DNA from: Grammothele lineata
Taxonomy: Eukaryota > Basidiomycota > Agaricomycetes > Polyporales > Polyporaceae
Assembly (NCBI GenBank): GCA_002150815.3
Contig: NDFF03000085.1
Span: 1-63,052, forward strand
Reading direction: 5' to 3'
Length of the DNA stretch: 63,052 nucleotides
Both the position numbers and the translations under genes were made by a program. Every line of letters begins with the position of its first letter. Within the stretch, counting starts at the first letter, position 1. Shown piece after piece: positions 1,882 to 47,384 of the stretch. The notes below the pieces were generated by a model. It was not told the DNA's origin. It did not search any database and saw only the letters and a list, made by a program, of their open reading frames with translations.

Positions 1882-3121
1882 ATGTCCGCTTTTCGTGCCT
1901 CTCCGCGCGCTCTCCCTCCTCCCCCTGCTGGCGAGTACGACTTCGGCTTCGCCAACCTCTACCTGCGCACGGATGAGTGGAACGGGCGCGACGGCTCCCT
2001 CTTCGTCTTTGTTACCCTCACTATCGACGGCCCCGACTCCTCTCTTACGGTGAGTGTGCTGACGCTTTTAAGTCCCGTTACCAATGTTAGCTGATGTACG
2101 ACTCACTTATATAGCTCTTATTTCCGACTATGGGCCCAGACAGCCTTACCGAGGCCACCTGCAACAAGTGGCTCGCCGCCGTCCAAGGCCCCGATGTCAC
2201 CCGGACCGGCATCAACGACGAGCAGCGAGAGATGGTTCTCCATCTCTTGCTTGCATTCCGCGCGTACAGTCAAGCTCGCGACGACATCGATCAAGACGGA
2301 TATTACAACGTCGTCGGCGAGCTCGTAGTGCTCGCGAAGTCCTGCCAGCCGCACGAGCGCGCCGATGACCACCTTGCGGCATTCTTAGCGGAGGTAGTAT
2401 ATGGGGCGCTGCCTGCGGTAAGTCACATCCACTAGCTCGTCATCCTCATTTCCTGATGTTCCGTCAGGATGTGTTTTGTGCGGACGACATCCCTCCCGCG
2501 TGCGTCGAAGGTAGCCGCCTCCCCCAGGACCCCTTGCGTCCATGCCGCCGCGACCCGCCTTCGAGCCCCGGCAACGCGATACCCGCGTTCCCTCAACACT
2601 TCGTCTTCCAGGCGCGCCGGAACGCTTTCGCCCCTTCGAAGAAGCTCGTTGGCGAGCTCCTCCGCCTGGCGGCGGCGGCAGACACGGATCGTGAGGCGAC
2701 TACCGCTCGCAACTCGGGCACGACGACGGCCAACGATGCGCCGCGCGCGGAGTCCCTACACTCGCGCGCCGACGTGGCGCGCGGCGACCACGTCGCGCCC
2801 TCTGGTATAGGTGCCGCATCCGCGCACCGCATCCGCACGTTCACAAGTGATAATAGCGTGCCCGCTCTCACTATTGCCCGTGACGTCGAAGCTGCGCGCG
2901 ACCGCATTGCACGCCGCGTTGATGTGGCGCTGCGTGCTGCTGATCCTGTCAGCATGCGTTACAGCGCGCCCGTCGAGCGTGTTGCATCAGTCGCTGGGAA
3001 CGATAGCGACGACATTCTTGATGATTGGGAGTATTTGTCCGACGACTCGATGCCGTCTCTTAGGACGGTTGTCTCCGACTCGGACGATGATTGGTTGGAG
3101 TCGGCATCCGATAGCGACTAA
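1882..3121 (+). CDS. Gene A: hAT-borne accessory protein of unknown function (374 aa)
   Basis: I do not recognise a family. Exons are 1882-2049, 2115-2417 and 2468-3121, all phase 0, with GTGAGT..TATAG and GTAAGT..TCAG introns. The start ATG is supported by the matching N-terminus of A' (shared proline run PRPLPPPPAGEYD-like and a YLRTD block). Exon 2 encodes a helical core with CNKW near its start and GINDEQREM. Exon 3 opens with an ADDIPPAC motif and contains QARRNAFAPSKKLV. The C-terminus is strongly acidic (SDDSMPSL, then D/S runs). No signal peptide or membrane segment is seen. The gene lies just inside a hAT terminus and reads toward it. A second copy lies at 40110-42253. Conservation of two diverged copies with intact frames suggests selection on the protein. 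A role in transposition is inference. Confidence 0.8.
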
Positions 3122-3515
3122 GTAATACTTAGAATACCTTGATATTGTAGAACCTGGAGTAGCAATCTACTTAATCTAGTCCTCCGCTCATATTCCTACT
3201 ATGTGTGTGGCCGAATCTCGCAGTACAGTCTGTCTTTTCTAAGGCCAAAGGCTCGATTCTCAAAGGCAATGTCACACGTCACACCGTGAGCACGAAAATA
3301 GCACTGAAGGCATGATGTCAGTGCAACCTCGGGGCTGCCATGGCTCTACCTCGGTCAGCGCTTGCAGTGGTGACCTGTCACGGATCGTGCACAAAGCAAA
3401 CATGTGACCTAGATCCGAAGCCAATCCGGTGTGCGGGTGATCTGACATGCACGGATCGTGACCTGCAGGTCACGGGTGCGGGTCGAAACGGGTCGAACCG
3501 GACATAGATCCGCAC
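3122..3515. other. Subterminal region of hAT copy 1
   Basis: No gene. The stretch between the gene A stop and the terminus contains repeated short motifs also found at the ends of copy 2: CACGGATCGTG (twice), GTGACCT/AGGTCAC, GGGTCGAA (twice) and CGGATC-type words. Clusters of short subterminal repeats are typical transposase-binding regions of hAT elements; the binding itself is inference. Confidence 0.6.
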
Positions 3516-3530
3516 CCGTGCTCAGCCTTA
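3516..3530 (-). repeat. hAT terminal inverted repeat (copy 1)
   Basis: Read on the minus strand it is TAAGGCTGAGCACGG, identical to the two termini of the complete element at 39645-39659 and 47370-47384. It fits the hAT terminal pattern of a short repeat with a purine-N-G near the end. Confidence 0.85.
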
Positions 3531-3540
3531 GCAACAATGT

Positions 3541-4060
3541 TCCGACCATAGAAAACTTGATCCTACCATAGGATAGTATCTCTCACAGTAGAGGACTATA
3601 TTCTGCCATAGGATTGTATCTCTAATGGCAGGATCAGGTTTCCGATGGTAGGAACCGGTTTCCGATGATACATATACATACTGTAAGCTTGGACATCAGA
3701 TTCTGGCCAGACACCTATAGTGATCATCTTCTGAATCCGGCCGAACATTCTACATGCCTACCCATTCAATCCCGGCCAAACACTATGCACGGCAACAAGC
3801 CGAGGTCGGCCGGGTGCTTCCAGGGTAGATCCACCCTGTCCGGCCGGACACCTCTTACGCTGTCTGGGTTACCCCCGGCCGGACATTAGATCTGTCAATG
3901 CGCTTGTTCCGGCCGGATCGACTATCAATATGCATCTAATTTACAGGGGGTAAGGGGAGCTCTCGGCCGGACGCTCCAGGCCGCTATATGAAATATCCCG
4001 GCCGAATCACTAATAATGAGAAATCTAATGATGTCCGGCCGACATCCGGGCAACACTTGT
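3541..4060. repeat. Imperfect hairpin (3541-3665) and CCGGCCGG-type motif cluster (3735-4055)
   Basis: The first part is an imperfect inverted repeat: GATCCTACCAT near 3559 pairs with ATGGCAGGATC near 3627, and CCGACCAT pairs with ATGGTAGG. The second part holds about eight CCGGCCGGA or near-variants (CGGCCGAA, CGGCCAAA, CGGCCGGAC) spaced roughly 20-70 bp apart. No open frame in either part looks coding. Regular spaced palindromic words of this sort can be subterminal binding sites of a non-autonomous transposon, but I could not define ends. Confidence 0.5.
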
Positions 4061-4451
4061 GATGGCGGTTAGTCACGTCCGGTCACACGTTGAATGTGGT
4101 ATGAGTACACCATGGACTCTGCGCTCAACCACGATCGCAGGGCCCGGCGGTGTAAGAGGCTGACATGCGAATGACCTTGTGAGAACATGGGTCCCGAACA
4201 TGTGGTCGTGCACTGACAAACATTTATGCTCATACAGTGCGTATCGAACACCCCTAGGCGCACCCCAGGCCAGAACACACCCGCGGTGCAAAGGTGAGCA
4301 TTCCTGCGTCGCCGCATGCTTGTCCATTGACAGGCGTGTCTGTATCCGAAGGGGAACTAAACCCTCCTCGTGAATTAAGTTACTGGGCACCGGGCCTCGA
4401 ACGCTTCTTGCATTCTTGGACCCGACGTGTTCGCATGATCGTAGAGGGAGC
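4061..4451. other. Intergenic; nothing recognised
   Basis: Short open frames in several phases show no family resemblance. This is probably the distal promoter of the downstream DUF6533 gene. Confidence 0.4.
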
Positions 4452-4457
4452 TATAAA
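4452..4457 (+). promoter_or_regulatory. TATA box of DUF6533 gene 1
   Basis: TATAAA occurs 82 bp upstream of the start codon at 4539 and is followed by a pyrimidine-rich stretch before the ATG, which suits a fungal core promoter. Confidence 0.5.
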
Positions 4458-4538
4458 CCCTCCATGGGACGCGAGGAGGAGCGTCAGAGCTTCTCGCCTT
4501 TCGCTATCCTTTTTGCACAACTATTAGCCTCGTCCCCA

Positions 4539-6402
4539 ATGTCTTCTAATTCCACTGCAGCTACTGCCGCCATGGCGGAGTACATCGCGGAGACGGCTGA
4601 AGGGTAAGTCGACTTCAACGCTTCGTGAGCACGCCGTGTGCGCTTTAGACTGACTGTCTCTCAGCATGATCGATAACTACTGCGGTCTCGCAGGGATCGG
4701 TACGTGCTCAGCAGCTGACTTCCAATCTCTTCCACCACTCATGCTTTCAACCTATGCCCCGATCTCCGCGTACTACAGTTTTCTTGCTGTACGAATACTC
4801 AATCACGTTCGGCCGGGAAGTCGACCTATTCTGGACGAGGCGGTTCTCCGGGGCGACCGTGCTCTTCCTCGCGAACAAGTACATCAGCCTGCTGAACCAC
4901 CTCTTCGACCTGTCGTTGTATATTCCGTTCCCCATCTCGGCCAAGGTTCGTCGATTATCTCTCTTTCGTAGATAACCGCGCTCATCTGTGGCTTCTCGCT
5001 AGACCTGCGATCTCCACGCGAAGGCGTTCTCGTCCATCGATTACTTGCAATACGTCCCGTGGGCAGGTACGTCACCTCGAGCTCCTATGAAGAGAGTCAG
5101 GTCACCAACGCGCATATACCAGCCTTCTCAGGTCTGCGTGCATTCGCGCTATGCGAGAGTTGGCTACTGTCCATAGCAGTGTTCCTACTGTCGCTCGTCC
5201 CACTCGGGGTCAACTTCGTGCGTGTTCCCCATCCTATTTTCTTTATGCTGGAGAACGTGGGTGGGAACTCATATCGGAGTGCGCAGGCTGCGGGGATCTA
5301 TGGCGTGTACGACCCTAGTTCGGGCGCGTGCGGCATGGGCGAGAATATGAGCGTACAGACTGGTATTACGTGCGTATATCTCTTACTCCTCGCGCAAATG
5401 TGAAGCTAAACTACAGTTCTTTGCAGACGTACGTCCTTGTACCGGATGTCCTAACTCGCACCGGAGACGCTCACATTCAGTCTTCAGTGACAATCGTCGC
5501 GCGCTCGTGCCTCATCGCGGCGGACGTGATCCTCGTCTGCATCACCTGGTACTGTCTTCCTCGGCGAGGAGCTTCGCGCCTCTTTCGCGGAGGCGCTGTG
5601 ACTTTCACCGATATTGTGCTGAGAGATGGTAAGAGCTTCATCGTGCGCGTATATGCGTACATGCACTATAGGGACTAACACAGGGTCTGTTTGCAGGTAC
5701 TGTATACTTCTTGTACGCGCTTTAGCAGTCGTGACACAGCGCGCCCGTACTGATGGTGAACACTATAGAGCACTCGGGATCCTGAACGCGCTGCACATCG
5801 CGTTGTCCTTGAGCTCGGTGCGTATCTCCCCTTCGTGCCTCTTGTAGCCTTCCCGCTGACGTATTTCGGAACAGACAAGCGAGCTCACGTACTTCACTGA
5901 ACCGTACGCTACTCCCCTTTCCGACCTCGCTCGACGCCGCGCTCATCATTAACTGTCTCTCTCTCTCTCTCTCTCTTATCCCAGCCTCAACGCAGTGCTC
6001 GTCTCACGCTTCCTCCTAAACCTCCAAGAAACCAACCGGCGCACTGTCAAGGTCTTCGACAGCGCTAACCCAGACGCGGAAGCGGAGTCCCGCACTGCAG
6101 CGGATTTTGAGTCTGTGCGGTTCGCGCGCGTCGTCGGGTCGCTGGGGTCGACGGTCGAGTTTGGTCCGAGGGGAGACTCGCTTGACTTGGATGAAAAGGG
6201 AGAGGGGGAGAGGGAGGAAAGGGAGGGCTCGTTCGGGTCCTCCCATTCGGATCGCGAGTTTTTCGAGCTCGTGCGCGCGCAACCAGTGGGACTCGGAGAC
6301 GCACGAGAGCTCGGAGAACCCGCCCGCGGCTCGAACACCGCCGTACTCATCGCCACCGACGAAGACTCGCGCAGCCCGCGCGGAGCGGCCATGACGAGAT
6401 GA
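4539..6402 (+). CDS. DUF6533-family seven-helix membrane protein 1 (about 428 aa)
   Basis: Ten exons give one frame: 4539-4603, 4665-4699, 4779-4945, 5003-5066, 5132-5373, 5427-5628, 5697-5712, 5769-5817, 5875-5903, 5985-6402. The N-terminal DUF6533 signature reads LLYEYSITFGREV, then FWTRRFSGATVLFLANKY. Several hydrophobic segments follow, including SWLLSIAVFLLSLVPLGV and ADVILVCITWY, and the tail after LVSRFLLNLQ is hydrophilic and Glu-rich. This layout matches the large Agaricomycete family of seven-transmembrane proteins of unknown function. 5220-5288 is a possible extra, frame-neutral intron. The neighbour at 8115-10149 is a tandem paralogue with the same exon phases. Location at a cellular membrane is inferred from the hydrophobic segments; the ligand or role is unknown. 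Confidence 0.85.
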
Positions 6403-8114
6403 TCAGGTAGTATCGGTGCGCCCACAAGCCCGATTCTAGACGAGATGACGAAGGATGGACGGAGCGCTCGGGGAGAGGGGGAGAGGGGGCGTCCGGTCTA
6501 CGATGATACTGTAGCAATGTCGCGCGATGCGCGAAGCGACGAGGCACGGCGGTGTTTTCGGGTTCGCGGTTCGCAGCATCTTCCTGCATGCGCTCCGCGG
6601 CGTTGAGGTGACTCCCCGTTGAACCTCCGGACGGCGCCGTCGACGTCATCTGCCCGCCCGCCCGCAGTGTATTTTCTATACATAGGTATTGGGGAGGAGG
6701 TTCTCGCCGCTCGCGTGCTCACTCGGGGAAAGGAAGAGCTAGCGAGCCGCACAAAGATGGCCGGGATGTATGTGGTCTTCACGCGGGGTCCGTGCTGTGC
6801 GTGGACGCAATGCGTTATTGCGGTCTGCTACGGCTACTTAACAAACTCAATCGGTCCGTAGTATCGCCGTGGTGCACCGCGCGGACCCGGGCGTTACGAA
6901 TCTTGATATGTTTTGAAAGTTTTTTTGGCCGTGCGGAGACGGAATCTTTGAGGAACGCGGGGGTATGGATAGTGCGACCTGTGCGTCTGTGAAGGAGGTA
7001 ACTTACGAGATTTCTAAAGACGTCTTGTGGGTTGCGTCGCGACCACCACAGAGCGCCGCGTCGTATGTTATCGATATGTTGAGACTCGCGAGGTCTGCTG
7101 GTGATGAATGCGGTCTTGGCGAATCCCGCTGGGAGCGGTTCGCTGCCAAAAGCGCGTAAATGAGGCAGGTGGCATGGAAGCACGAAGCAGAGAGTGAATT
7201 GGGCGCTTAGTATTCTCGGAAAGCTCCGGCGCCGCCCGAATTCAATCGCCCCGCCGGACCGCGCAGGCTTCGGAATTCAATACAACTTATACTTCCTTTG
7301 TGCTTCCTCCTCCCACCACCAACGCTGGGCGCGCGGGTATGTCGAACTTCCGGCGTTATATGAAAGTCCTGAACATCGCGCTCATTAGTGTGGTCAGCAC
7401 AGCTGTTTCTGCTAGCGTCGGCAGCGGACCCGCGTGTGGTACTGCATCTCTCGCGCCTTCGGGCCAGTGGATGTCCATCTGAATTGTACGCCGACTCGCG
7501 ATTGGTGCGCAATAGTCCCATGCGGTCCCGAACGTGTTTCGGTGGGGGCTTGTATCGCTCGGCATGCCGATAGAGGCCTCCTCGGTTTCCACGTCGTCTC
7601 GCCCCTGCGTTCGGTGTCCTAGGAGCTCTTTGCTGGATGCAAGGGAGGGCATGCCCATGTTTCTCAAGGTACTTCTGACCGCCGCGCGGTCTTCTGCGGG
7701 CGAGAAGGAGCGCGAAGTGCGGTCTCGGGGCTCCGAGCGCAGGCGGTGGTCGCGCCTTCCTCCGCGACTTCCCGCGCACGAGGGCGCGTGCATTCGTGCG
7801 TGCGTGCGAGTCGCGGGAAGGGCTTGCTCTCGATCGGCGATTACGTTGTGCGCACTGGAGCTACGTTAGCGGGCACCGCCAGCGCGTCCGCGTCCCCACT
7901 TTGACGACCTCGATCGGAGCGGGACGACTCCGGTTCCTGGCTCGTCCTCCGGTCACTCACTTGGTCCACTCCGTCATATACCCAACCGCGCGCGAATGCC
8001 CACCTTTTCAGCAGCCCTGTTGCCCCCTTCACTCTCTCCGACGCACGCTGCACGCTCCGCCTGTCTATCGCACGCGGTCCACGATCTCAGTTGTCGGAAA
8101 CTCCCCGCCATCGG
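6403..8114. other. Intergenic region between the two DUF6533 genes
   Basis: No multi-exon gene can be assembled. One small open frame on the plus strand (ATG at 7339 or 7360, stop 7480-7482) begins with a signal-peptide-like stretch (MKVLNIALISVVSTAVSA) and would leave a residue of about 23 aa; support is weak. The opposing minus-strand frame 7356-7793 looks like a GC-rich chance frame. Confidence 0.4.
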
Positions 8115-10149
8115 ATGTCCTCATCGCTTGGCTATGATCCAGTCTTTGCAGCGGAATACTATGGCTTGTACGTCCTCAATGATCTATCTATATGATTCGA
8201 TTAGCATCACTGACAGGCCCGCCTCCGGATCGTAGTATCGTCATCAACTACACGACCCTCGCAGGAGCAGGTGAGTACGCCATTTTCGCGCATACACCCA
8301 CCTTTCTGTCGTGATCGTGCTCAAGACACCCCTTGGGTCTAGTCTTCATGTTCTATGACTACCTCATCACATTCGGGAGTGAGGTGGAGTTGTTTTGGAA
8401 GGCACCCGTCTCGTGGGCGAAGATCGTCTACTTCGTCAACAGGTACCTCACCTTCGCCGAGAAGATCCTCACCCTGCTCCTCTGGCTACCCCACATGTCC
8501 CCGAAGGTATGTACACGCGGAAAAGTGCGCATATATGCAGGGATCTGACGTACCATCGCGCAGAGGTTGGCTATCATCCTCGCTATGAATAGCATATATT
8601 CAGGTCGCTGATCGCCGGCCTGCAATGTTTCCAGCTGCACGATGATGACGCTCGCCCAGTTCACGGTGGATATTTTTCAGTTCGTACCATGGGGAGGTAA
8701 AGCTAGATCATCCTTTCCTTGCTCATCGGAGCGCTGACATGTGCGCTAGCGTTCTCCGCCATGCGAACCTTCGCGCTCACCTCCTCGGCCAGTCGCTCGG
8801 CCGGCATCTGCTGGGCGCTCACTCTGCTCGTCTTTGGGCTGTCCATGGCGCCCTTGGGATCGAACCTCGTACGTCGTAACTTCTTGAAAGTCGACGCGTC
8901 GTCTCATTGTATCTTGAAGTTTCTCTTCTCGTATCAACAAGACGGTTTCGTCGATCCCATATACGGGTGCCAACAGAACTTCGAGATCCCGATCCCTCGA
9001 AAAATACTATTAGAGTGCGTTTCATACCCGACTTAGATGTGTTTTATTATTCATAACCTCTGCGCACCTCACTAGGTGTTCGTCGCACCATTGCACATGT
9101 CGTCGCTCTCGGGTGCTAATCTTTATGGGTACAAACAGCGAGCTTCGCGGGGCGCGCGTGCCTCGTCCTCTCCGACCTCCTCGTGCTCGTCATCACCTGG
9201 GTGACCCTCAGAAAACGACACGCGTTCCCGACGTTGTCGCGCGTGCCGAGTTCGCGCCTCGCGCGCATCCTCTTGCTTGACGGTGAGCGCATATATCCAC
9301 CTTCTGCACCCACCCTGGCTGACTGGGCCTTGGTTTTGGACGCGCGCGCGCTGTGTCGTTGAGTAGGGACGATATACTTCGTGTACGTCGCGCGCCCCGC
9401 TCATCTCATTGTCGTACGATCTATTGCCGCGCATACTCACAAACTCTGCCGCTGCTTTTTTTGTCCAGGCTGCTATGCGTGCTGAACACGCTCCACATCA
9501 CCTTCTCACTCCTCGCCAAGTTCGGCATGGGCGGCGTCAGCAACTTCACCGCCTTCACCGAGCCGTGTGTCCCCTCTCTTCTCCTTCTTTCGCGCGTCTG
9601 TGAGAAATCTGACACACGTTCCCATTTGCATGTATGTGTGTGCACGCGTGTAGGGTGACAGCAGTCCTCGTCTCGCGCTTCCTCCTTGACCTCCAAGGCA
9701 CTTACCGCCCCTCCCCTCCCAGGCCAGGAGAAGAGCCCTCAGACGAGACGCTGGACGGTCTCGCGGGCGCAGGCACGAGCGCCGCGACCGGTGGTACCGA
9801 GCCCTTCCTCACCTCGCACTACACCCTCGGGCCCGAGCTAGTGGGCGCGTCTGCGCCTGGACCTTGCGCTTGTGCGTGTGGGTGCCGCGACGTCGAGAGA
9901 CAAGCCGGGGCCCAAGAGCTGATCGCGAAAGATGCACGCACGCGAGAGGTGGGAGGGGAGGGGAGCGCGGGGACGACGGTGACGGCTGCGAGCGGGATTG
10001 AGGAGGTTTCTCTTGGGGGTGCGGGGTCGGGCTCGGAGCCGGAGAGCGAGAGGACAACTGCCTCTTGGGCGAGCGCGGGGGCGCTGCTGAGGCGTCAGTA
10101 TGAGCGCGAGGTGCGAGCGCAAGCGCGGTACGGGGGTTCGCCGGTGTGA
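8115..10149 (+). CDS. DUF6533-family seven-helix membrane protein 2
   Basis: This is a paralogue of the gene at 4539-6402 in the same orientation. Exons I can place: 8115-8167, 8236-8270 (35 nt, like exon 2 of the paralogue), 8343-8496 or 8506, 8635-8696, 8750 to about 9009, about 9144-9282, a short exon near 9368, 9469-9564 and 9654-10149. The DUF6533 motif reads FMFYDYLITFGSEVELFW and is followed by VYFVNRYLTF. Later membrane segments include ALTLLVFGLSMAPLGSNL and LSDLLVLVITWVTL. The tail after LVSRFLLDLQ is hydrophilic and Gly/Glu/Ala-rich. The joins near 8496-8634 and 9010-9143 are uncertain, so a degenerate exon there cannot be excluded. Function unknown; membrane location inferred. Confidence 0.78.
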
Positions 10150-11333
10150 GTGCAAAATGGGTCTTGACGACTTTTGCAGAGACGATGGGTGTTGCGTATG
10201 GGTTATGGTGTACGATATCGTGGACAGGGAGACGTGTTCATACTGTAGAGCATTTACTTAGTATATGCGTGTACCACCCTCAAGTCTTTACGCACGATGT
10301 ATTTGTGCTTAGTTGTAGTGATACGCCGCCGTGTCTTGGATGTGGAACGTCGTGATAATATTTGTACACAGGCGGACAAGATTGGGGATGAGACGGTGTG
10401 AACCGGAAACCTCCTTTGGTGCGAATTCCATAACCCGCCGGGCCCGCCGCGAGTCATGATGGGCATAGTGATCTATCTAGGGAGAGGACAGACATGTTTC
10501 AAGCACGGTAATTTTCCTTCTGCCTGCCGCATGCTTGTAACTAGTTGCCGAGCATTGTTCTGTATGCGGGCTGTCGTGCGCAGGTCAACTTGACTTAGCT
10601 AGTCTCTTCCCAACTGCCGGCGGCGACCCACGTGGTGGCGGTGACCACCGGGGTATGACGCCGTTTACTGGACACAATTAAAAATATATGTGTTTTTCAC
10701 GGGCGTTCCCATCCATGCACGAGCGTTCCTTACCGATAGTTGTGTTTCCCAGCCTTTCATGACATTTCATGTACTTGCACATGGTTTCATCAGCATTCAT
10801 AGGGATTTTTATTCATTCCTCGTCATTCCTTGTGATTCACTGCCGTTCCCTGCCGTTCCTGGTCAAAAAGTGTGACTTCCCCTTACACTGCCACCAAGAT
10901 CACGTTTTCTGCAACACCGCCGTTCATTACCGTTCACGACGCCACCGTCGGCGCAGTAGAAAAAAAGTGTCGACCTCGCCTGCGCGACCCAAAACAAGGG
11001 CAACAGATCTCTCGACCGATTCACGTCCTTTCACTGTGATTCACGCAGATTGAAATCGTCGATCACACCGGCAGACGTACGACCGGTGCCCGCAACTCGG
11101 CCCCGTTGGCCAAGTTCGGTTCAAGCTCCTCTCCCGTCGATGCCCGACGCCGATCCACCTCGATCCCCAGCCCTCATTGGAGTCCGGCTCACCCCATCCC
11201 GCCGACATTCCGACGAGCCGCATGGCCTGTGTCGCGTTCGAGTCACGGCCATCCCGCCGTTGCCCCCCGGGCCCTCAAGGCCTCATCCCCAAGCTCTCGC
11301 ACACATCCTGTCCCTATTCATCCCCCGCTCGTC
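10150..11333. other. Intergenic; CATTCC/GTTCC-rich stretch at about 10700-10870
   Basis: No coding sequence is seen. From about 10700 to 10870 the plus strand repeats short words such as CGTTCC, CATTCC, TTCATG and GCCGTTCC at close spacing, giving a pyrimidine-skewed block. It may be a subterminal region of the element that carries the integrase gene or its promoter, but I found no inverted repeat partner beyond gene D. Confidence 0.4.
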
Positions 11334-13128: not shown

Positions 13129-13247
13129 TTCCGCCTGTCCGATCCAGTTCGATCGTTTCCCCTCACTCTCCGACTTTGACCGAAAGGATACAATCCGATT
13201 TGCGATAAGCGCCAGGAATCAAGACGTTCTCCTTCTCCCCTGCAACC

Positions 13248-13641
13248 ATGCCACCCCGACGTCGCACTTGGAGTTACGTCTCCGACGACTATCGTCCCCC
13301 GTCGCCCCCTCCCAGTGCGAGCGCCCTCGGTAGAGCCGAACGCGCTGCACATCGTTGACAGATCAGAGAAGTCAACCACCAGTCGCCCACCATCCTCGAG
13401 CCCTCACCCGACCAAGATCCCCCTTTGCTCGATGAGCCTGCCGTGGACGGAGCGCGGGAGCCAGACACGACGTGTGCGTACCACCAGTTATGCATGCTCT
13501 CATACATCATTTACATGTCCCCATAGCCCTTGGCAATGAAGACGCCGTTTCCCCGGGGGAGACTCTCCCCGTTGGCCTGACCCCTCACGACGAGCGTCTC
13601 ACGGATTCGGTCAACACGGCCGCCCTTCCTACCGACCTACC
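13248..13641 (+). pseudogene. Gene D, 5' part: unknown protein interrupted by a copia element
   Basis: I do not recognise the family. Exons are 13248-13314, 13367-13471 and the first part of exon 3 (13527-13641). The reading frame then meets the retrotransposon and resumes after it at 34521, past the second copy of the 5-bp target duplication. Counting both parts, the exons add up to 1191 nt, an exact number of codons (396 aa). The N-terminus is Arg/Pro/Ser-rich (MPPRRRTWSYVSDDYR). The exon 1/2 boundary was chosen because only the acceptor at 13366 keeps the frame open into exon 3. With 20.9 kb of minus-strand retrotransposon in an exon the gene is almost certainly inactive at this allele. 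Confidence 0.6.
13637..13641. repeat. copia target-site duplication, left copy
   Basis: CTACC directly precedes the left LTR and is repeated directly after the right LTR at 34516-34520. Five bp is the usual duplication length for Ty1/copia integrases. Confidence 0.9.
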
Positions 13642-13991: not shown

Positions 13992-14002
13992 CTCCCCCTC
14001 GC
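13992..14002 (-). promoter_or_regulatory. copia polypurine tract
   Basis: The minus strand reads GCGAGGGGGAG immediately before the 3' LTR, the position and composition expected of the plus-strand DNA primer of reverse transcription. Confidence 0.8.
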
Positions 14003-14045
14003 TGAGCACGACGCAATGTCTGCGCTAGCGAAATATGTGGCGCTC

Positions 14046-29877: not shown

Positions 29878-29884
29878 CTTCGAG
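29878..29884. repeat. KDZ target-site duplication, right copy
   Basis: CTTCGAG, matching 15239-15245; the copia RT frame resumes here. Confidence 0.75.
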
Positions 29885-34515: not shown

Positions 34516-34520
34516 CTACC
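34516..34520. repeat. copia target-site duplication, right copy
   Basis: CTACC, matching 13637-13641. Confidence 0.9.
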
Positions 34521-35991: not shown

Positions 35992-38900
35992 CTATTTGTG
36001 GGCTGAAGCACGCTTGATGAAGCTCGGAATCGCGGCTCCCAGCCTCCCAATGAGCCTGGCACCATCCGGGGGGAAGTTGTCGTAAAACAGGTTGACACCG
36101 GAGGTGCGCTCGACTTCGTTGATGAAGAGCTCGAAGCGATGTTTGGCGACTTTCACCACGCTCGCATCTAATCTCGCAAACAATTCCATCCCAGTGGGAC
36201 CTCCAAGGTCTTCCTTCGCGAGGTCCACCAGCGCACTGTACTGTTTGGTTATAAAGCGCGTGAACTCAGCCAATCCTTCGGCTTGTCGGTCACCGATCCA
36301 GTCGCCGATCCACTCTGTATTGGCGAACTTCTTGCCGGCAAGCTGCCCGGCCGCGCTCATTTCTCTACATCCACGTTTCATATGAGTCATACGCGGAGAC
36401 ATTCTATCGGACAACGTACCCCCATTTGGCCGTGGTGTACATCCCTTGGACAATTTCCATTTCGCTTCCACCTTCCTCATTCGGGACCGTCTTGATGATA
36501 TGCACCAGACGGCCATCCACAAAATATGACCGGAATTCCCCGATGCTGGAATCTCTAAGGCCCGCGATGAAGGGCTGTTTGAACCAATTGTCGTCGTAGG
36601 GAGCGTAACGGCTCCGGAGCGCGTCCCAAGTTGGTGGATACTCGTCGCTTCCGGGTAGGTACACCCGCTCTCCATACGAGCTATACGCCCGCTTGAAGAC
36701 TTCCCCTGAATTCTTTGCGCGCGTACTTGGCCGATGCGGCACTGTCCGAGGCCTGATCGTCTGCGTGCCGTATGCTGCTGCCAGGTCCAAGTGGTGAATG
36801 AGAATCTTCTTGTTGCCGAACAACATCATCTCCCGAGGGTTGGGCCATACGAGTGTCGTGTGCATGAGGTCGTCCATACGCCTGCAATATAGCTCCAGAT
36901 CTCTGGGAGCATCCAGCTTATATTCTGGTTGTCTACCGACCTGTGTAAGCTTTGTCCTGTGAACTTTGAGCCGCGACATACCTATAGTCTCCTGTGAAAT
37001 CCGCTCCTCCAATCACCATGTCCGCCATTCGTAGACAAGCCCAAACCTCGGGGTGAGCGTCCTCCCCTTCCAAAAGCGCTGCCAGGAAGTTTTCGTAGTC
37101 CATCACCTTGACGATGTAGTCTCGCTGCGAGCGCATCCAGACTGGTAGAACGAGCTGTTGTGTGTCAGCTCCACATTTTCTCCAAACCTTCATACAGTAC
37201 GACTTACCCACTCGGAAATATCCACATTGACTACTTCTTGCGTATCGTAGATATCTCTCTGACTATCTTCCTCGAGGAACACGCCATGCGGGCACTCCCT
37301 CTTGAGCTCAATGTATGCACCCATAGACATGGGCACCGTGGTCCACCAGCAGCAACGGTCCTCTCCAGAATGATGACGACCTGACTTCGCGTCTAGATGC
37401 GTATTGTCCTGCAAAGCCGGGTCAGCAATGAACAGAATTTGCCATTGCTCCGGGTCACTGTGGCAAGTAGACCCCGGGCTATCGGGGGGGGGAACGCCGC
37501 CAGAGTCAGAGGCCGTGGGCGACAACGCGCTTATCAGAGTTGCGCTCGTCGCGGCGTTTGACGATGCGTGCGTTGCTTCAAAGGCTATTGGACCGCACAG
37601 GGGCGGGGGGGATGGCATGGACGTTTCGCTGTCTTGCGTAATAGGGGAGAGCCTGGGCGACATGGACATGGGCACGTCAGTCGCGCATGCGGATGCGTCC
37701 CTCCCAACCGCGCGGTCAGTGCTCGCGAAGTCCGTGCTCGCGAAGTCCGTGCTAGCGAAGTCTGGGCTCGCAAAATCCGAAGAGCCAACATGCGCGAGAT
37801 ATGTAGGAGAGAGACGGCGAGTGCGAGTGCGGTCCCCAAACGCTGTGGTGGTGCGGAACAACATGGGCCCACTAATGGGCGGGGGGGAAGGCATGCCACT
37901 CAAGTCGCAAGCCGTCTCCTTACTGACGAGCGTCGTCCACGGAGTGTACCCGGGTCTCGCGGCGCTCTCCCCCGCGATGGTCAACTGCTTGTCCCCTTGC
38001 GTGTGTGCCAGACTCGCGCTTGTCGTACCCCTGGTGGCCTTTTCTCGTGTCGGCGATGGGCTGACCCGTCTCAGCATTATGGGGCGCGAAAGCGGCGGGG
38101 GAGAGAGAAGCTGTTCTGCGTGCGGGCTTTGTGGGATACTCGTAAGAGTAGCTGTCAAGTTGCGCTCGTCTCCCTCTCGCGCGCCAGCTATAACTCCCGC
38201 GTCTCGCACTTCCTCGTCCAGCACATGGATCCCTGCCACGGTGTCCGCGTCTGTGAGCACGGTCGACCTAGTCATTGATTCTTGATTCACTGGTGGGGTG
38301 GCACGGTGGGAAATAGGCCGCGGCGACGTCGGCCTGTCCGCGGGCCTGGCCTGTGCCAATGCTGAAACGCAGTCGCTTGGAGGCTGGGCAACTGCGGATA
38401 GTGAGGCCTCTGGTCGTATACTATGACTCATGAGCGCAATTCCCTCTCATAACACCCATAATTACTCACGTGTTTCCTGGTGCCAGTGCACCCGGGGCGG
38501 CCCTCTGTCCAGAAGGTCTCAACTCAGCAGAGACACCGGCACGAAGTGCAGGCCGATATACGGCGCGAGGGAAGGAGTGTGCTGCGAGGCGACCTTTGGG
38601 GAATTGGCGCGGTCGATCAGCTCGTTTAGGCGGCTCGTTCACCGTCTCCGCCGACAGATAGGTACACAAGGCAGCGTCGACAACAGTGACCTCATTTGGG
38701 TGCAGGTAGAGCGCCTCCACCCCGTCAAAGGCTTCATAATATCGTTGCCGCCAGCTCCCTGTAGCAGTCTTCGCTCGCACCCATCCTAGAGAGCTCGACG
38801 TCATTCCTAGAACGACGTCATCGTTCTCGTGCCCTATGAGAGGGTGTCTCAGGGTCCCAACTACAGCGTCCATGGGCTGCTGTTGCCAGCCTTCCAAGGA

Positions 38901-39233
38901 CTTGACATAGACCTCGGCCGAGAGTGATGTCGGGGAATCTTCGCGAATGCGTATCCGGGGGACACTATCGCCTCGTGTCGCAATATCATCGCAATTTTCG
39001 ACACGTATCCACACGTCTCCTACGGCACCGTGTTCTGGTGGCGGGTGCTGGTCTCGAGCTAAAAGATACAAATGCCATATTCCTCGGCCGGTCTCCCCGT
39101 CCGCTGAGGATGATCTTCTATCTTCACGATGGCTGAGCTGTGCTGGGATTTCGCTGGTTTTGAAGTGAATCCAGTATGCGGTCAGGGCTTCTTGCGTTTC
39201 AAACCAATTCTTTTCCTCTGATGCGGCATACAT
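35992..39233 (-). CDS. Gene G: large orphan with ATP-grasp-like C-terminal region (1002 aa)
   Basis: Five exons join in phase: 38470-39233, 37208-38420, 37017-37154, 36420-36940, 35992-36364. Residues 255-660 are a low-complexity Ser/Pro/Thr region containing a five-fold DFAST-type repeat (codons at 37715-37775) and several PSPPP.SGPM-like units. The C-terminal third has APYDDNWFKQPFIAGLRDSS, then IGEFRSYFVDGRLVHIIKT, and near the end FARLDASVV and FELFINEVER. The pattern GEFRxxFxDG with a later RxD...NE is what I would expect from an ATP-grasp ligase fold, but the nucleotide-binding lysines are not assigned. Related hypothetical proteins occur in polypores as far as I recall. Its start lies 411 bp from the hAT insertion, so its promoter is probably altered. 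Confidence 0.65.
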
Positions 39234-39644
39234 TGATTAGTGTGCTAGTGTGAGCAGGAGACCCTTCAGCAAACCTTCGGCTGCTACAGGCCATGTAGGT
39301 CCAAGAAGCTTCATTTCCTAGCCGTGATGTAGGGCGAGTGTGCTGCTAATATCTGTCTGACTGAGCGTGCGGCGTTGAGCAAAGGCGAAGCCCTGTGGTC
39401 GCATTCACTCTCTCGAAACGCGAGGCAGACACATGTTTTCCTCGTGCATTTCGAAGTGTACGTGTGCCACTCCAACCAGCCTTTTCATTTCGGCAGCCAG
39501 ACCATTGATTGCTGCAAACGCGTGTCAGTGGGAGATTGTCCAAATCCGGAAATCGGCCCGGTGACGCAGCAGCGCGTGCCGCCGGTTATGACGAGCGCCG
39601 TATCCCCGACGTGGCAAGCGCCCTTTCCCCGACGTGGCAAGCGC
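39234..39644. promoter_or_regulatory. Former divergent promoter, left half, with 23-bp tandem units
   Basis: The DNA upstream of gene G ends at the hAT terminus. At 39600-39644 a unit of the form CCCCGACGTGGCAAGCGCCCTTT is repeated; one more copy continues on the far side of the hAT element at 47385-47412. Genes G (minus) and H (plus) were therefore about 520 bp apart and divergently transcribed before insertion. Confidence 0.6.
39637..39644. repeat. hAT target-site duplication, left copy
   Basis: GCAAGCGC, repeated exactly at 47385-47392; 8 bp is the hAT duplication length. Confidence 0.9.
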
Positions 39645-40109
39645 TAAGGCTGAGCACGGGTCCGGATCTATGTCCGGTTCAACCCGTTTCGACCCGCACC
39701 CGTGACCCGTGGGTCACGATCCGTCCGGGTCAGGTCACCTGCTGACTGGGTCAGCCTCGGATCCAGGTCACACCCTCACCATGTGCAGGAACCGTGACAG
39801 GTTAATACTCCAATATATGGTTATGGCAGAGGGAATCTCATGCCAATCACATTCCCATGAGTCACGCCCAAGTTGTGGCCCCCTTCGACTCATTGCTGGT
39901 CCACCTTGCTCGCAGGATACTTGTCACATTCTACCTTATTGAGTATGTCACATAGCGCTTTCACACTGTCACGGTTACATTTCGAGGGTGTCAGTCGGTT
40001 GGCACACCAAGTCTTTCAATAGCGAAGTCGGGTCTCAGGAATGTATACGTATTATAGCAGCATTGAGAAACAATTCTATAGATTGTGATAGCAAACATAA
40101 AGGCGGTAT

Positions 40110-42253
40110 CTATTCGTCACTATCCGACTCATACCAGTCCTCGTCACTCGACTCGGAAGCGACCGTCTTGAGGGATGGCATTGACCCGTCGGACAGGTAC
40201 TCCCAATCATCAAGATCATCGACGGGATCGCAGCCATGCTCAGCCGCTGACCTAACACGCTCAACAGCTGCGCTGTATTCCATCTGAGTCCCGGTACCGT
40301 CCGCAAGACGACTACGATAAATAGCTTCAAGGCGGTGCACAATGCAATCGCGCGCGATGCCAACGGCGACGGGAGAGTGCGCGTTATCGGCTACGAACGC
40401 GCGTAAACCAGCTACGTCAGCCGCACTGGTACTCGGCGGCGCGCCACCACCCCCAGCGGTGGGAGTGCGCGGGGTGTCCGTGCGCGGGGTGTCCATGCGC
40501 GGAGTGTCGTCGAGGTCGTCGAGGTCGTCGGCCGAGTTGACAGTGGCGGCGGGCCTGTTACTGGTGTCGACTGCGGCGGCCACACGGAGCAAGTCGTTGA
40601 CCAGCTTCTTCGAGGGTGCGAAGGCGTTGCGGCGGGCCTGAAACACGAAATGCTGGGGGAAGGTGGGTATGGCGTGGCCCGCGCTCGGAGGCGCATCGCG
40701 ACAGCAGGGGCGCAGGGGGTCTCCGGGCTGCTGACTATCTGGGACGCACGCGGGGGGGATGTCTTCAGCCGAAAAAACACTCTGAAAGCATATCAATGTT
40801 CGCGTGGGAGCAAGCGCAAAGTAGGATGTAGACGTACAGCAGGAAGGGCGCCGTAAGCGACTTCAGAGAGCCATTCCGCGAGCTGCCCGTCGGCGCGCTC
40901 GTACGGACCGCACGACATTGCGAGCACGACAAGCTCACCCACGACGCTGTAGTACCCGTCAATGTCGACGTCGTCGCGAGCCTGGCTGTACGCCCGGAGA
41001 GTAAGCAAGAGATGGATAACCATCTCCCGCTGCTCGTCGTTGATGCCCGTTCGAGTGACGTCGGGCCCTTGGATGGCGGCAATCCACTTGTTGCAGGTCG
41101 TCTCGTTCAGACTGTCAGGGCCCATGGTCGGCAGTGACGTACGCTCAAGTCAATGAGATAAAACTCGATCAACTATTTGCCTGAGGGAATCGGACTAGAC
41201 TCAAAGTCAGATGAGCTTCCTCAGTTGTTCGATGACGATGATGAAGTCTCTACCTCTGAGTAGCAGGGGATAGAAGGGATAGTACGAGGACTAGAGTGGA
41301 TACGAGCGTTAGAAGTACTACACTTGAGCACTTGCTTACGAGGGGGACGTTACGTACTAGGGTACCGCCGGTTGCAGTACGCTAGGGAGTTTCTCACACA
41401 GCTCACGTTTGAGGGGAAAGAACGTTCTCATTCTCCCTGCTCAGAGGCAGGGCTTTATATACTATGAGGTACGGGAACTATTCTAACAGATGCAAACATA
41501 GGAGTGCCATTGTTCTGACGAAGGACAATGGAGCATTGGACAATAGCATGTGTAGGACAATGAGAGTATAGGGACAATGGCATAACGACGGACAATAACG
41601 TAGTAGACAATAGTCCATAGGGGACAATAGACGTACTGCATAATGAGGAATGAGAACAATAGACGTAGAGCATAATAGAGCATAAGGACAATAGCTAGGG
41701 GCGTAGAGGACAAACAGAGGATGAAACTATAGTACAAATAGACGAGATAATCAGTCTGTCTTACAAATCGATCGCCTGGTCTGCTATGTCAGATTCCTCC
41801 GTCCCTTCGTCCCCTTCGTTGCTTGACGCATCGTCGCTTTCATCACTCAGCACATCCGGCGTCATGGGCTCCGGCGATGCCACTAAGGCACGGTTGCTGA
41901 GCGTCGTAGGGGTATCGTCGTTGGTGGGTGGGGTGACCAGGTCGCGCAGTACGGTCTGCGGTAGGTTCGAGATGACTCTGCATGAAATGTATTCAATCAT
42001 ACTTGCGGTATGACAGCAGCAGCAGCTAGAGCACAATCCGTGAGCGAATGAAGAAGAGAGAATACAAAGGGATTGCGCTCACCGTAAAAGACGCGTTGGG
42101 GCCGTCAATTGTGAGGACAACAAAAACGAGCCGGGTACCGTCGCGGTCCAGCCAGTCGTCCGTGCGAAGGTAGAGGTTCGCAAACCCTTCATCGTACTCG
42201 CCAGCGGGCGGCGGAGGAAGAGGGCGCGGGGAAGGGTGATAGTTAGAGTTCAT
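40110..42253 (-). CDS. Gene A': second copy of the hAT-borne accessory gene (382 aa)
   Basis: Exons 42083-42253, 40838-41143 and 40110-40781 correspond one to one with those of gene A, in the same phases. The product shares the Pro-rich N-terminus, the CNKW and GINDEQREMV blocks, the AEDIPPAC motif and QARRNAFAPSKKLV, and ends in an acidic DDWEYLSDGS region and D/S tail. By eye the core exon is about 79% identical to A over 96 residues, with many silent differences. Unlike A, whose first intron is 65 nt, intron 1 here is 939 nt and contains a GGACAATA-type repeat block and a 91-codon open frame. An alternative short transcript ending in that frame is conceivable. Function unknown. Confidence 0.78.
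41511..41705. repeat. Degenerate GGACAATA/G repeat array in intron 1 of A'
   Basis: About ten copies of GACAAT followed by A or G, mostly preceded by G, occur at irregular 12-30 bp spacing. Such an array is absent from gene A intron 1. It accounts for part of the intron expansion. Confidence 0.7.
41761..42036 (-). other. Open frame of 91 codons inside intron 1 of A'
   Basis: Its second half (VSNLPQTVL region onward) is acidic and non-random in appearance, ending DEGTEESDIADQAIDL. A TTTCATGCAG acceptor lies just upstream of the likely coding part, but joining it to exon 1 of A' does not keep this frame. It could be a relic exon, an alternative end, or chance. Confidence 0.3.
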
Positions 42254-43801
42254 TCTCTGGTGGGCGAAGGGATCGGCGCGAGCGAGGGGCTGCGGCGGAG
42301 AAGGGAATTAGACATTTGGTGGCAAAGGATGTAGTACATGAGGGGACGGCGTACTCACATGTTCGGCGTTCGGGTTCCGTGTCCACCCAGTCGTACGTTC
42401 CGTCGCATTCCTGGAACGGTCCTGAGAGCCCACCTGACCGCGCAAAATTGTTCAGGACTCGCCTCCATCTGGGACATGTCGTTTCCGCGGGTATCGGGGC
42501 GGCCGACAGTCGAATTTCCTCGTCACCAAGGGTCTAAGACCCTGGGGGAAATGGCGCGTCGCGGCGTAGCGGGGTTACTTGGGATTGAGGAGGATCAATG
42601 AGGAGACTTACTAGATACGCGGTTGATAAACTTTTCAGCCGGACGCGAGATCCTGAACCAGCTGTCGGTTGCACGCGGTTAGCTGCTGTATATCACACGC
42701 GGCGTAGCACGTACCGCACCATGCAACCCATTTGGTAACTCTTGTGTTGCCGTTCCTTGCATCTTGCACGCGGGGCTGCAGTAGAAAGGACAGAATGAGT
42801 GATGTTCAACGAAAAGAGGATCGGGCACACGACGCGCCAGAGGCCGTCACGTGACGATCTAGCGGGTCCGTGCGTTGCGTGGGACGTTGACTGTGGCAAT
42901 TTGACGCCCGTGTCCTGTGGCGGCTTTCGAGTCGTCCTCCAGCCTCGCTTTCGCCTCACCCCACTCCGGTTGCATGAACAACTCACCCGAGCGCCGAGCG
43001 GTCAAGGTGAGGTATTTGGTGGTTAGATCCTTTGCCCACGCTGATGCGCCGTATTTGTTGTTAGATCTACCTTCGCTAAGCGACTCAGACTAGTACTCGG
43101 GCGGCCGCCGTCATCCGGTCGATCCGAGAGCCCGACACCAACCCGACCCCGACAGCAACTTGAGCCGGCCCCGCGACTGCGGTGAAACGGCTAGTAGGAT
43201 GCGGTCGGACTCATGCTACTCGCCGCTCCTTATCGCCCCCAATTTTTTTGGTCGCTAGCGAGAGGTACGTCGGCAGTATGGTCATGGCGGACTTGTGCAC
43301 TGACACAGGTACTCACGTCCAGGTGACTCTCGGTATCCGTGGATATCCGTGATCTCCTCGCGTCGCTCAGTCGCCACGATCCTGGGCCCCAACCCCAACG
43401 CTTGCCGGTGAGTTTTCCCGCAACGTCGACCCTGCAAGTCTCACTAATTTTTGCGGAACGGCTCCCCTCGAAACAGGGTCGATGTTCAACTTGAGTTCCG
43501 CTACCAGCCCGGGATGGCTGGGCTCATCCATGCGATCGACTCGAAGAACGATGACGCGGCCTCCGAGTCGTGACGAATGACCGAGCCGGCAAGCCGTTCA
43601 CTGGCACGGGCGCACTGCCCTGCGTCGAGACTTAGGAAATTTCGCGCAAGGCTCAAGCTCCAAGTCCAAGGGCTCCAACCTGGTCGCGGGCCCGATCATG
43701 TTCGCGTATATATACCCTCGAGAGGTGCAGTGACAGGTACGTATCGAGCTCCTACCCTCGTACATCTCATCTCAGTCGTCCGCATCTCTAGCTCTCCTCC
43801 A
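42254..43801. promoter_or_regulatory. Spacer between A' and the hAT transposase; TATA at 43706-43714
   Basis: Both element genes start from this 1.5-kb spacer and diverge. A TATATATA run lies about 90 bp before the transposase ATG. Stretches around 43080-43260 resemble, on the opposite strand, 660-960 in copy 1 (CCGACCCCGACA/TCGGGTTGG-type words, then a GATCGxCCGGATG block next to GCGGCCGCC). No further gene is convincing. Confidence 0.55.
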
Positions 43802-46800
43802 ATGTCCTCCTCGCAGTCTTCCAGTACATCTAAGCGTGCGCGCGCGCGCTCCGTCAGCGACGGCAGCACGACTGCAAAGCGCAACCGCCGTACCAACGTC
43901 GACTCCGACTCCGACGTCGAGGTTGACGACGAGCCACAGCTTAACGAGCACGGCCCTGACGGCAACAGCGAGGACGAGGCTCCCGCCGACCCGGTGCAAG
44001 CCGTCGCCAAACGGGCCCGGTCTGCAGCCCGTACGCGTCCAACCGCCGCGCAAAAGCGCGCTCGTTTCCTTGAGAAGTATAGCGGGAAGTCTCCCGAGGA
44101 AGTTCTTGGTGAGTCGTACGCAGCTGTACAATGTAACTCAGTCTTGACTCATTCGCCCTAGATGCTTTGTCCAAGACCTGGCGCTCAAAGGTCTATACGC
44201 ACTTCCTCGCTCCCGAGATTGTGCTTGGCAAGGATGATGCCGTCATCCATCGTTTCCGGTGCAAGGAGTAAGTGAAATTATACTTACTTTTCTTTCTCAA
44301 CGGCTGATATGTGTGCCGCATGCAGTTACCCATCCAAGTTCGTTGACCGCGCGGATTACGAAGACTCGACCGGCAACCTCGGGCGCCACCAGAAGACCTG
44401 CGAGCCGGCCGACTCGGCTGAAGTGCAGCTCATCGAATCGTTCGCGTCGGGCGTCACGTACACACCCGCGCGGCTGCGTTATCTCATCGCGCTGTGGTGT
44501 GCGCGCCGCCATCGCCCCTTCGCCATCGTCGACGACCCCGAACTCCAACAGATTATGGTGATGCTCTACTCGAAAGTCAAGATTCCTTCGCGCCATACAG
44601 TTTCGCGCGACATTCAGTCCATTCTGGAGTTCTCCAAGGCGCGCGTGATTACTATGTTCCAGGTAACGCATTTCATCCTTCTCGTCGCGGTGTGCGGACT
44701 GACAGATGTTCACGTCCGCGTAGGAATACCCCGGGCGCGTTCACCTCTGCGTGGACGGCTGGACAAGCCCAAACGTGTTCTCCTTCCTCGGGATTACCGC
44801 ACACTGGTTCGACGGTAGCCAGCTTCAGCATATCATCCTCGACTTCGTTAGGTATGTCGAAAACTCTCTCGTATGTGTAGCACTACTAACTTCCGCTTTT
44901 TGTGCAGACTCAAAGGTTCTCACACCGGAAAATATCTCGCTACCGAGCTTGTCGAGTCACTCAAGGAGTACGGCCTCGAAAAGAAGGTATGTACATACGC
45001 TGCGTGTTCTAGAGGCCTTGCGCTCATTCCTCACACAGATTCTTGGCGTCACCAGTGACAACGCTGACAGTAACGATGTGATGATGAAGGAACTTCACGT
45101 TCTCGTGCCCGAGATACGTGGGATGGAGGCACGTGTGCGTTGCTTCGGCCACGTCTTGAATCTCGTCGTCAAGGTATGATCTCCTTATGTTCATCTAGTA
45201 CCGCGTATCACTGACATTCGTCCACCCTCCAGGCAATTTTGTCGCGTTTCGCTCCCAAGAAGAAGTCTAAGACGTCCGCGGATGCTGCCGAGGACGAAGC
45301 AGCCGCCGCAGAGGAAGGCGTAGACGAGGGCTCCGATATGAACGCGCGCGAGCGCGCTCAGACCGCGCGCGAGCTCGCGGAGCTCGCAGATGGCCGCCTT
45401 GAGGGAGAAGGTGACAACGACGATGACGACGACGACGATGTTGACGTCGATCGTGAGGCGGCGGACGCTGCCCTCATCGCCGCTCTCGCTGCGGAGGAGG
45501 ACGACGACATGGACGCGGCGGTCCCCATGACACAGGAAGACATCAAGATCGGGTTGCTTGCCTCGGAGAAGGTACGTACCGCAGTCATCTGCATGTGCTC
45601 GCACTTACGTTTTTTGCAGATTATGCGCCTTTCCACGAAGGTCTGGCATAGCCCCCAGGTCCGCGAAGAGCTCGCGCAACTTGCGGGGGACGCCGATCTT
45701 AACTCCGAAACGCTTGTGCGTGCCGTGAGGACCCGTTGGAACACAGTCACAGAGGTCCTCGAGCGCGCTCTTGACATGCGTGTGGTCCTCACGGAGTTAT
45801 GCAAGAACCCGCGCTTCAACAAGACGAAGGACCGCGGGCTGCGTCTTCGACGCTTCCTTCTGAGCGATGAGGAGTGGCAAGTTGTCGAGGAGCTGCACCG
45901 TCTGCTCGATGTATAGTAACGCTTTTGCACACGCACTCCGTAGTCTAATATAAGTACTTTCCAGCCATTTCTCTTCGCCACGAAGGCAGTCTCGGCCAGC
46001 TCTCGCGCCCTCGTCCACGATGTCATCCCTTACATGGATGTCCTCACGCGCCACGTCGATGAATTCCGCCGGGATGAATCTCTTAGTCCCATGGTCCGTG
46101 ATGCAGCAAAACGCGGCCGCAAGATACTCGACAAGTATTATTCGCGTACGGATGAAACCGTTATCTTTCGCGTTGCTATGGGTATGTACCTCGCTAAGTA
46201 CCTCCCTTGTTGCGCAATCACGACTGAATGTATTATTAGTGTTGCATCCGGGGCTCAAGACTCAATACTTCCGCGATCAAGAATGGCCCGAGGAGTGGAT
46301 TGACGAGGCTCTGCGCCTCGTGCGCGAGACCTGGTCCTCGCACTACAAGCCCGCCATCCCGCCCGCACCTCGCGAGCCCCGTCAGCACCCTGTGCCGAAG
46401 CGCAAGAACGGCCCTGGGACCGGCCGCATGAGTGCGCAGGCCAGCACGAACGCTGTACGTTCCTTTTCCTGTGTATTGCATTACTCCCGCTAACTGTGCT
46501 TCGACTTCCTTCCTGCAGGCGACACGCGCACTCTTCGAGAGCTTGTCACGCGCTCATCGTGCTGCAGCGGCCTTCGACGCCTTGGAAGCTTACCTGGGCG
46601 CGCCCCCAGTGCCAAACATCAAGGACCCATTGGCATATTGGAGTGCGTTCCTCGCGAGCGAGACCGACGGTGCACTCGCTCGCATGGCGCTTGATTTTCT
46701 TTCGGTCCCTGGTACGTCCTGACACGGCTCATACAGCGCGCGCGTTCATCTAACTTGTTTCGTATCGTATAGCAACGTCCGTCGAAGCCGAGCACGCGTT

Positions 46801-47035
46801 CTCGCGTGGCCGCCTCACCGTTTCGCGGCTGCGTCACTCTCTGAGTGACGCCTCGGTTCGCGCAAGCACACTTCTCGGCTCCTGGGCCTCCATCCCAGCA
46901 CTTGTACCGGAGACCGACGTAGTGAACCTGATCCGTGACTTGAGTGATCGACACCGCGCTGCGAAAGGAAAAGCGAAGGATAATGGTGATGTTATTGATG
47001 TTGATGCAGAGGTTTCGGAGGACAGTGACCATTAG
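43802..47035 (+). CDS. hAT transposase (869 aa)
   Basis: Twelve exons join in phase: 43802-44108, 44162-44267, 44326-44662, 44724-44851, 44908-44986, 45039-45173, 45233-45571, 45620-45910, 45965-46181, 46240-46454, 46519-46711, 46773-47035. The N-terminus is basic and Ser-rich with a nuclear-signal-like KRxRxRS, then a BED-like region ending GRHQKTC. The catalytic core has D261 in CVDGWTS followed by LGITAHW, and D326 in GVTSDNADSND. A long acidic insertion (many D) occurs in exon 7. The C-terminal dimerisation region is at about 785-825: SVEAEHAFSRGRLTVSRLR followed by VRASTLLGSW. Full length, no stops, so probably functional in excising and inserting the surrounding element. Confidence 0.9.
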
Positions 47036-47369
47036 TACGGCTAGTTTCTCTTGGACGTCTCGCAGGGCGGTTCCACTGTAACTTGTTACTTTACTCATGA
47101 GTGATCATACACACGTAATACAAATGGTTTCAAGTCTTCCTATGTCAGTTGTGTGCCTCTTCTGTCTCGCGAACGGGTCTGCAGCTCAACCTACAGGTCC
47201 TCACGGATCTGGATCCCCGGATACGGCTCTCGTCCGGCTCGACCTGCGCAACACGGATCCGGGTCTCCGGATACGGTTCTTTTGCCAGATCCGACCCGCA
47301 CGGATCCAGGTTAGGGTCTCGAGCATGTCTTAACCTGTAGGTTCGGGTCCGGATGACCCGCAGATCGAT
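47036..47369. repeat. hAT copy 2 right subterminal region
   Basis: No gene. From about 47200 to 47360 CGGATC, GGATCC, TCCGGATACGG and GGGTC words recur, including two copies of TCCGGATACGG about 60 bp apart. These resemble the left subterminal motifs and are likely transposase sites. Confidence 0.6.
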
Positions 47370-47384
47370 CCGTGCTCAGCCTTA

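Follow-up and report, generated by a model that had tools for sequence, protein, structure and literature searches.

The window analysed here, 63,052 bp of Grammothele lineata DNA, is contig 69 of the genome (G000; 41.8 Mb in 252 contigs) and contains a hAT element, designated C69', in which a second gene lies beside the transposase gene. The well-known elements Ac, hobo, and Tol2 share 8-bp target-site duplications (TSDs), short terminal inverted repeats, and a hAT dimerisation domain with this family and differ from it in that typical hATs of their kind are known to encode a transposase only. The locus raises the question of whether the second gene, here called A (A' in C69'), is a maintained part of these elements and what its product might do.

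The window elements and genes A and A'

Three 15-bp ends identical to TAAGGCTGAGCACGG (0 mismatches each) are present in the window, at 39645 (+), 47370 (-), and 3516 (-). The first two bound C69' (39645 to 47384), which carries the 8-bp duplication GCAAGCGC on both flanks, and the third bounds a partial element that is truncated by the contig start and carries gene A, the frame of which is open (1882 to 3121). No transposase match was seen at window positions 1 to 1880. The 15-bp ends, which are of the TAAGGCT type, are short terminal inverted repeats, and together with the 8-bp TSDs and the C-terminal dimerisation domain PF05699 they are features of the hAT superfamily. The C69' transposase matched this family (Dimer_Tnp_hAT) above the Pfam cut-off with an E value of 7.8e-10, and its nearest matches in the protein database, among 37 fungal hAT matches, were proteins of Trametes and Ganoderma; a related transposase was also seen in Antrodiella. 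Upstream of gene A, a 160-bp tandem duplication was observed at 1399 to 1712.

The gene models are all computational, with splice sites picked by GT/AG and alignment, without RNA. The ends, the GCAAGCGC duplication, and the exon models confirm a preliminary description of the window in which A' was placed beside the left end of C69' and transcribed outward. The spacings of 395 and 465 bp given there are right as figures, although the two were not taken to the same edge; counted from the outer tip, A lies 409 bp and A' 465 bp inside. The exons are read on the plus strand in A and on the minus strand in A', and the modelled introns of both are in phase 0, which bears out the three shared exons and identical phases described for the pair, except that most of "intron 1" of A' is a dispersed repeat. 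The computed identity of A and A' over the core exon (exon 2) is 78%, where about 79% had been reported.

The repeat in A' was recognized because window positions 41153 to 42015 recur in eight further stretches on seven contigs, with 84% to 100% identity. It starts with TG, has CTGC on both sides, sits at the start of exon 2, and seems to end with CA near 41136. Given its dispersal, TG start, flanking CTGC, and position, it is a solo-LTR-like insertion that disrupts A', which is therefore not an intact copy. An acidic open frame within the apparent intron (about 41770 to 41990) was considered as an extra exon and rejected, since it falls within the dispersed repeat. On C70, two matches to the repeat lie nearly 10 kb apart, like the ends of a full retroelement.

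Table 1. Features of C69' and of the partial element in the window
Feature	Position	Strand	Basis
Gene A exon 1	1882..2049	+	gene model
Gene A exon 2, conserved core	2115..2417	+	gene model
Gene A exon 3, acidic tail included (pattern match 3032-3066)	2468..3121	+	gene model, tail pattern
Palindrome GTGACC-N4-GGTCAC, 57 bp inside tip of partial element	3458..3473	.	pattern search
Terminal inverted repeat of partial element carrying gene A	3516..3530	-	0 mismatches
TSD GCAAGCGC, left copy	39637..39644	.	read from flanking sequence
Left terminal inverted repeat TAAGGCTGAGCACGG	39645..39659	+	0 mismatches
Candidate protein-binding palindrome GTGACC-N4-GGTCAC, 57 bp inside left tip	39702..39717	.	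pattern search
Gene A' exon 3, acidic tail included (pattern match 40165-40199)	40110..40781	-	gene model, tail pattern
Gene A' exon 2, conserved core; first codons from inserted repeat	40838..41143	-	gene model
Solo-LTR-like dispersed repeat in A'	41136..42015	-	41153-42015 matched; edge 41136 putative
Gene A' exon 1	42083..42253	-	gene model
hAT transposase gene, several introns, 870-aa hand-spliced model	43803..47035	+	PF05699 and exon matches
Right terminal inverted repeat	47370..47384	-	0 mismatches
TSD GCAAGCGC, right copy	47385..47392	.	read from flanking sequence

Complete elements and A-like loci in the genome

Ten end pairs were examined in the genome. Perfect 8-bp duplications flank nine of them (C69', GCAAGCGC; C67, ATCCAGGT; C68, GATCACCA; C71, TCGAGGGG; C3, GTTTATCG; C10, TTACAGCT; C152, GATCAGCG; C105, CCGCATGG; and C190), and eight are TSD-flanked elements of 6735 to 7790 bp. 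All eight carry A, in agreement with the co-occurrence with hAT transposases expected from the preliminary description. In each, A lies 240 to 507 bp from the left tip and points outward, and the transposase gene is on the other strand in a head-to-head arrangement, with its first match 1.28 to 1.81 kb from the A start. The A frame is open in seven of the eight elements, the exception being A'. The ninth, C190:590-2918, is a 2.3-kb derivative with the same ends, the TSD GGGAATTG, and a partial transposase but without A, and is likely non-autonomous. The tenth pair, on C36, has no TSD; the stretch C36:123251-143379, considered as a single 20-kb element and rejected, combines a C68-like left end, which holds a broken A, with a right-hand transposase resembling that of C69' and is likely a composite.

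Upstream of a related hAT transposase at C74:7934-11659, no A was found within the 2.7 kb analysed. The open frames present there were tried as a fourth A and had no profile support; they look like a gene of the zinc-finger type. Since the C74 transposase lacks A in this interval and further hAT transposase matches, on C14, C171, and C134 and at C68:11019, lie outside the A survey, the universality of A among the hATs of this genome is not established.

A-like loci were sought with A, a subfamily II A, a subfamily III A (see below), and a DNA pattern of the tail. The resulting 18 loci are a lower bound, as only the best candidates were scored, and the weak match C206:214689 (E = 0.19) was left out of the count. 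A recognizable hAT end lies beside 15 of them (C69 twice, C67, C71, C68:20k, C36, C220, C53, C219, C3, C152, C10, C153, C105, and C230). Two more, C121 and C106, adjoin hAT transposase matches and have no end within three mismatches of TAAGGCTGAGCACGG, with a candidate end at 816 in C106. The sole exception is the decayed fragment C68:40051: the 6 kb inspected around it contain no transposase, and the nearest end-like stretch, 0.4 kb away, has three mismatches. Hence 17 of the 18 loci adjoin a hAT end, a transposase, or both, and among these loci A-like sequences are not mainly host genes away from hAT ends. Broken copies of A are those of C36, C220, C53, C219, and C121, in addition to A'. The loci C53:15155 and C219:22549 have an identical flank beside the same decayed copy and, judged from this, may be one copy duplicated either segmentally or in the assembly.

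Genome-wide, the tail DNA pattern was matched 16 times, with 14 of the matches in A genes, and its reversed counterpart 6 times, which excludes chance; the other two tail matches (C41 and C238) contain an in-frame TGA. The conserved second gene almost certainly belongs to these hAT elements.

Protein architecture, subfamilies, and selection

In total, 11 A genes were modelled, and they fall into subfamilies I (five genes), II (three genes), and III (three genes), between which exon 2 identity is only 18% to 28%. All 11 models have exon 2 (about 100 amino acids; 300 to 321 nt) and an acidic tail in common. The first two modelled introns are in phase 0 and are followed by a linker of widely varying length and then by the tail; subfamily III has a fourth exon. 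Invariant positions are P4, L44, L46, L70, L99, and P100 in exon 2 (A numbering) and S15, S18, P20, L22, and V25 in the tail alignment. The tail keeps its acidity and aromatic residues while the preceding linker varies, and the tail motif Y.S..S[ML]PSL.[TS]V fits 10 of the 11 models, with C10 deviating. The motif is doubled in C36 and C220 and partly doubled in C68.

Nei-Gojobori dN/dS values in subfamily I were 0.14 to 0.26 for whole genes (10 pairs), 0.08 to 0.125 for exon 2 (8 of the 10 pairs, dS being saturated in the other two), and 0.18 to 0.44 for exon 3, and whole genes of subfamily II gave 0.24 to 0.30. Because many dS values are near saturation, raw pN/pS was bootstrapped, with subfamily III exon 3 left out and with the interrupted A' included, the first exon 2 codons of which are derived from the repeat. 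The 95% interval of pN/pS was below 1 in all 45 comparisons, the highest upper bound being 0.83 (C105-C106, exon 2), and exon 2 of subfamily I gave values of 0.16 to 0.28. This shows that the A coding sequence is under purifying selection in three divergent branches. The silent differences between A and A' had been taken earlier as a sign that the protein is maintained, and the dN/dS of this pair, 0.26 for the whole gene and 0.125 for the core exon, supports that view.

Distances for A exon 2 and for the transposase in 10 elements resolve the same three groups and are strongly correlated (Mantel r = 0.94, p = 0.0001), which indicates that A has long been linked with the transposase. Linkage alone is no proof of A function, since a passenger gene would be linked too.

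Subterminal repeats

The left and right subterminal stretches of subfamily I differ. GGTCAC, which like the other end motifs was picked after the counts were in view, occurs 4, 4, 4, and 5 times at the left ends of C69', C67, C68, and C71 and 0, 0, 0, and 1 times at their right ends, against a shuffled expectation of 0.1 to 0.5, whereas CGGATC is enriched at both ends. Subfamily II lacks the GGTCAC array; there, CGGCTC occurs 7, 7, and 8 times at left ends and 5, 3, and 4 times at right ends. The palindrome GTGACC-N4-GGTCAC has 15 sites in the genome, against 2 for the reversed pattern. Of the 10 subfamily I left ends examined, 7 have it at a distance of exactly 57 bp from the tip, and those of C53, C219, and C190 lack it. 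The remaining eight sites lie elsewhere; among these positions, pairs 1.6 to 1.9 kb apart were observed at C5:270693/272589 and C244:312915/314513 and could be the termini of a further repeat. The left-end repeats are candidate sites for binding of A or of the transposase.

Relatives of protein A and comparison with other two-gene elements

The earlier view of A as an undescribed protein holds in the databases searched. A, A', and the first member of the 10-row A alignment (A4) matched no Pfam family (A and A' at E ≤ 10), and the other members examined (the 10 of A4 and three full-length models) gave only unrelated matches below the threshold, the best being Arm_PDR (E = 0.0019; 3 of 10 members). 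TET/JBP was absent from the Pfam results of every A tested, and no DNA-binding or activation domain was recognized in A by Pfam. No relative was found in PDB by sequence at E ≤ 10 or among viral contigs. A structural model of exon 2 built from the two window rows is helical and weak (pLDDT, 62.6; pTM, 0.51), and a Foldseek search with it returned nothing at E ≤ 0.001. In the protein database, A alone had no relative at E ≤ 1 among the best 7995 candidates scored, and the 10-row A profile found one, a 112-aa environmental translation with 76% identity over 43% of the query, in which the match stops at the exon 2 boundary. This search could miss A relatives as distant from each other as these subfamilies, which may share too few words to become candidates, so that the absence of A from Trametes and Ganoderma is not established.

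Autonomous elements with two products are known from MuDR (MURB) and En/Spm (TnpA), which belong to superfamilies different from that of the A-bearing hATs and resemble them in having two products. Searches of open-licence full texts turned up no description of a hAT companion protein of this kind, subscription journals and Repbase Reports lying mostly outside this scope. Kojima (2025; PMC12730594) describes rust-fungus hAT7 elements with 7-bp TSDs and a TET/JBP dioxygenase as the second gene. Fungal hATs that carry a second gene therefore already have a precedent, and of the new two-component arrangement suggested for the window, what stands is that A is a different protein from the known one. 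TET-bearing hAT7 and the A family are alike in being fungal hATs in which the transposase is accompanied by a second gene with a proposed role in countering silencing. A differs from the rust TET/JBP protein in having no Pfam match above the cut-off and sits on hATs with 8-bp TSDs.

VANC, which VANDAL (MULE) elements encode, counters silencing in a sequence-specific way, its targets often being repeats that vary between related elements (Hosaka, 2017; PMC5735166). The likeness to A is one of logic, an element-encoded second protein acting on related elements. Proteins of the VANC type bind motifs within non-coding DNA of their own element and reduce methylation there; in the A family, the corresponding candidate repeats stand at the left end only. 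VANC belongs to a Mutator-like element and its anti-silencing activity has been shown there (PMC5735166), whereas A is a different protein on a hAT element and its anti-silencing role would be by analogy.

Possible role of A

A plausible, still tentative reading is that A is an accessory factor that docks on its own element and recruits host transcription or chromatin machinery through its acidic tail, keeping the element active. Full-length elements would then work through two head-to-head genes, for the hAT transposase and A, and the 1.3 to 1.8 kb between them could serve as a shared promoter region. The helical domain of exon 2 might dock on DNA, for which the GGTCAC repeats at subfamily I left ends are a candidate site, or on the transposase, and the tail might act as an activation or anti-silencing module. 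The constant layout and association (8/8 elements, 17/18 loci, and 14/16 tail matches), the signs of constraint and co-inheritance (dN/dS of 0.14 to 0.26, pN/pS below 1, and Mantel r of 0.94), the persistent acidity of the tail, and the unlike left and right subterminal repeats count for this reading. Against it count the lack of a recognized domain, the weak exon 2 model without a fold match, the movement of C190 without A, and the C74 transposase without A in 2.7 kb. C190 moved although it carries neither A nor a complete transposase, so A is dispensable in cis. On the accessory-factor reading, A would resemble VANC or MURB in logic. A bolder version, that A founds a new class of hAT-lineage anti-silencing or transposition factors, older than the three subfamilies, which reads co-diverging left-end repeat arrays and acts via the conserved acidic tail as a fungal counterpart of VANC, is rather doubtful.

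The asymmetry of the subfamily I ends, with GGTCAC concentrated at the left and the palindrome at a fixed 57 bp from the tip, and the tight co-inheritance of A with the transposase would also suit a transpososome cofactor that binds either the transposase or the repeats of the left end and promotes pairing of the unlike ends, with the tail contacting transposase or nucleosomes. We regard this as unlikely, though to be taken seriously: subfamily II has CGGCTC-rich left ends instead of the GGTCAC array, and in published systems other hAT transposases suffice on their own. Repressors are known from other DNA transposons, and A could similarly be a self-limiting regulator that represses or titrates the transposase and holds copy number low, as would fit the low number of complete A-bearing elements (8 in 41.8 Mb) and the common intergenic stretch that both genes face. 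Nothing in the sequence favours repression over help, however, and an acidic tail would better fit an activator, which makes such a regulator quite improbable.

Slightly less probable again is a passenger origin by gene capture, in which case A would serve the host or have a function unrelated to transposition. Gene capture by transposons does occur, and long linkage with the transposase would also be expected of a passenger, but among the 18 loci no A-like gene away from hATs was found except for one decayed fragment, and three subfamilies hold A in the same place and orientation. That A is not a real gene, its open frames being due to chance or a by-product of repeats, is hardly credible. 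The models are computational, with splice sites chosen by alignment, yet 11 of them have common splice positions and open frames, pN/pS was below 1 throughout, and similarity between the core and the environmental homologue ends at this exon boundary too.

Elements of the hAT superfamily are usually described as needing the transposase only. The retention of a second protein across deep branches suggests that, over evolutionary time, the transposase alone has been insufficient in these elements. With A, a specific partner gene and a set of candidate DNA sites are at hand for approaching how hATs escape silencing or build their excision complex.
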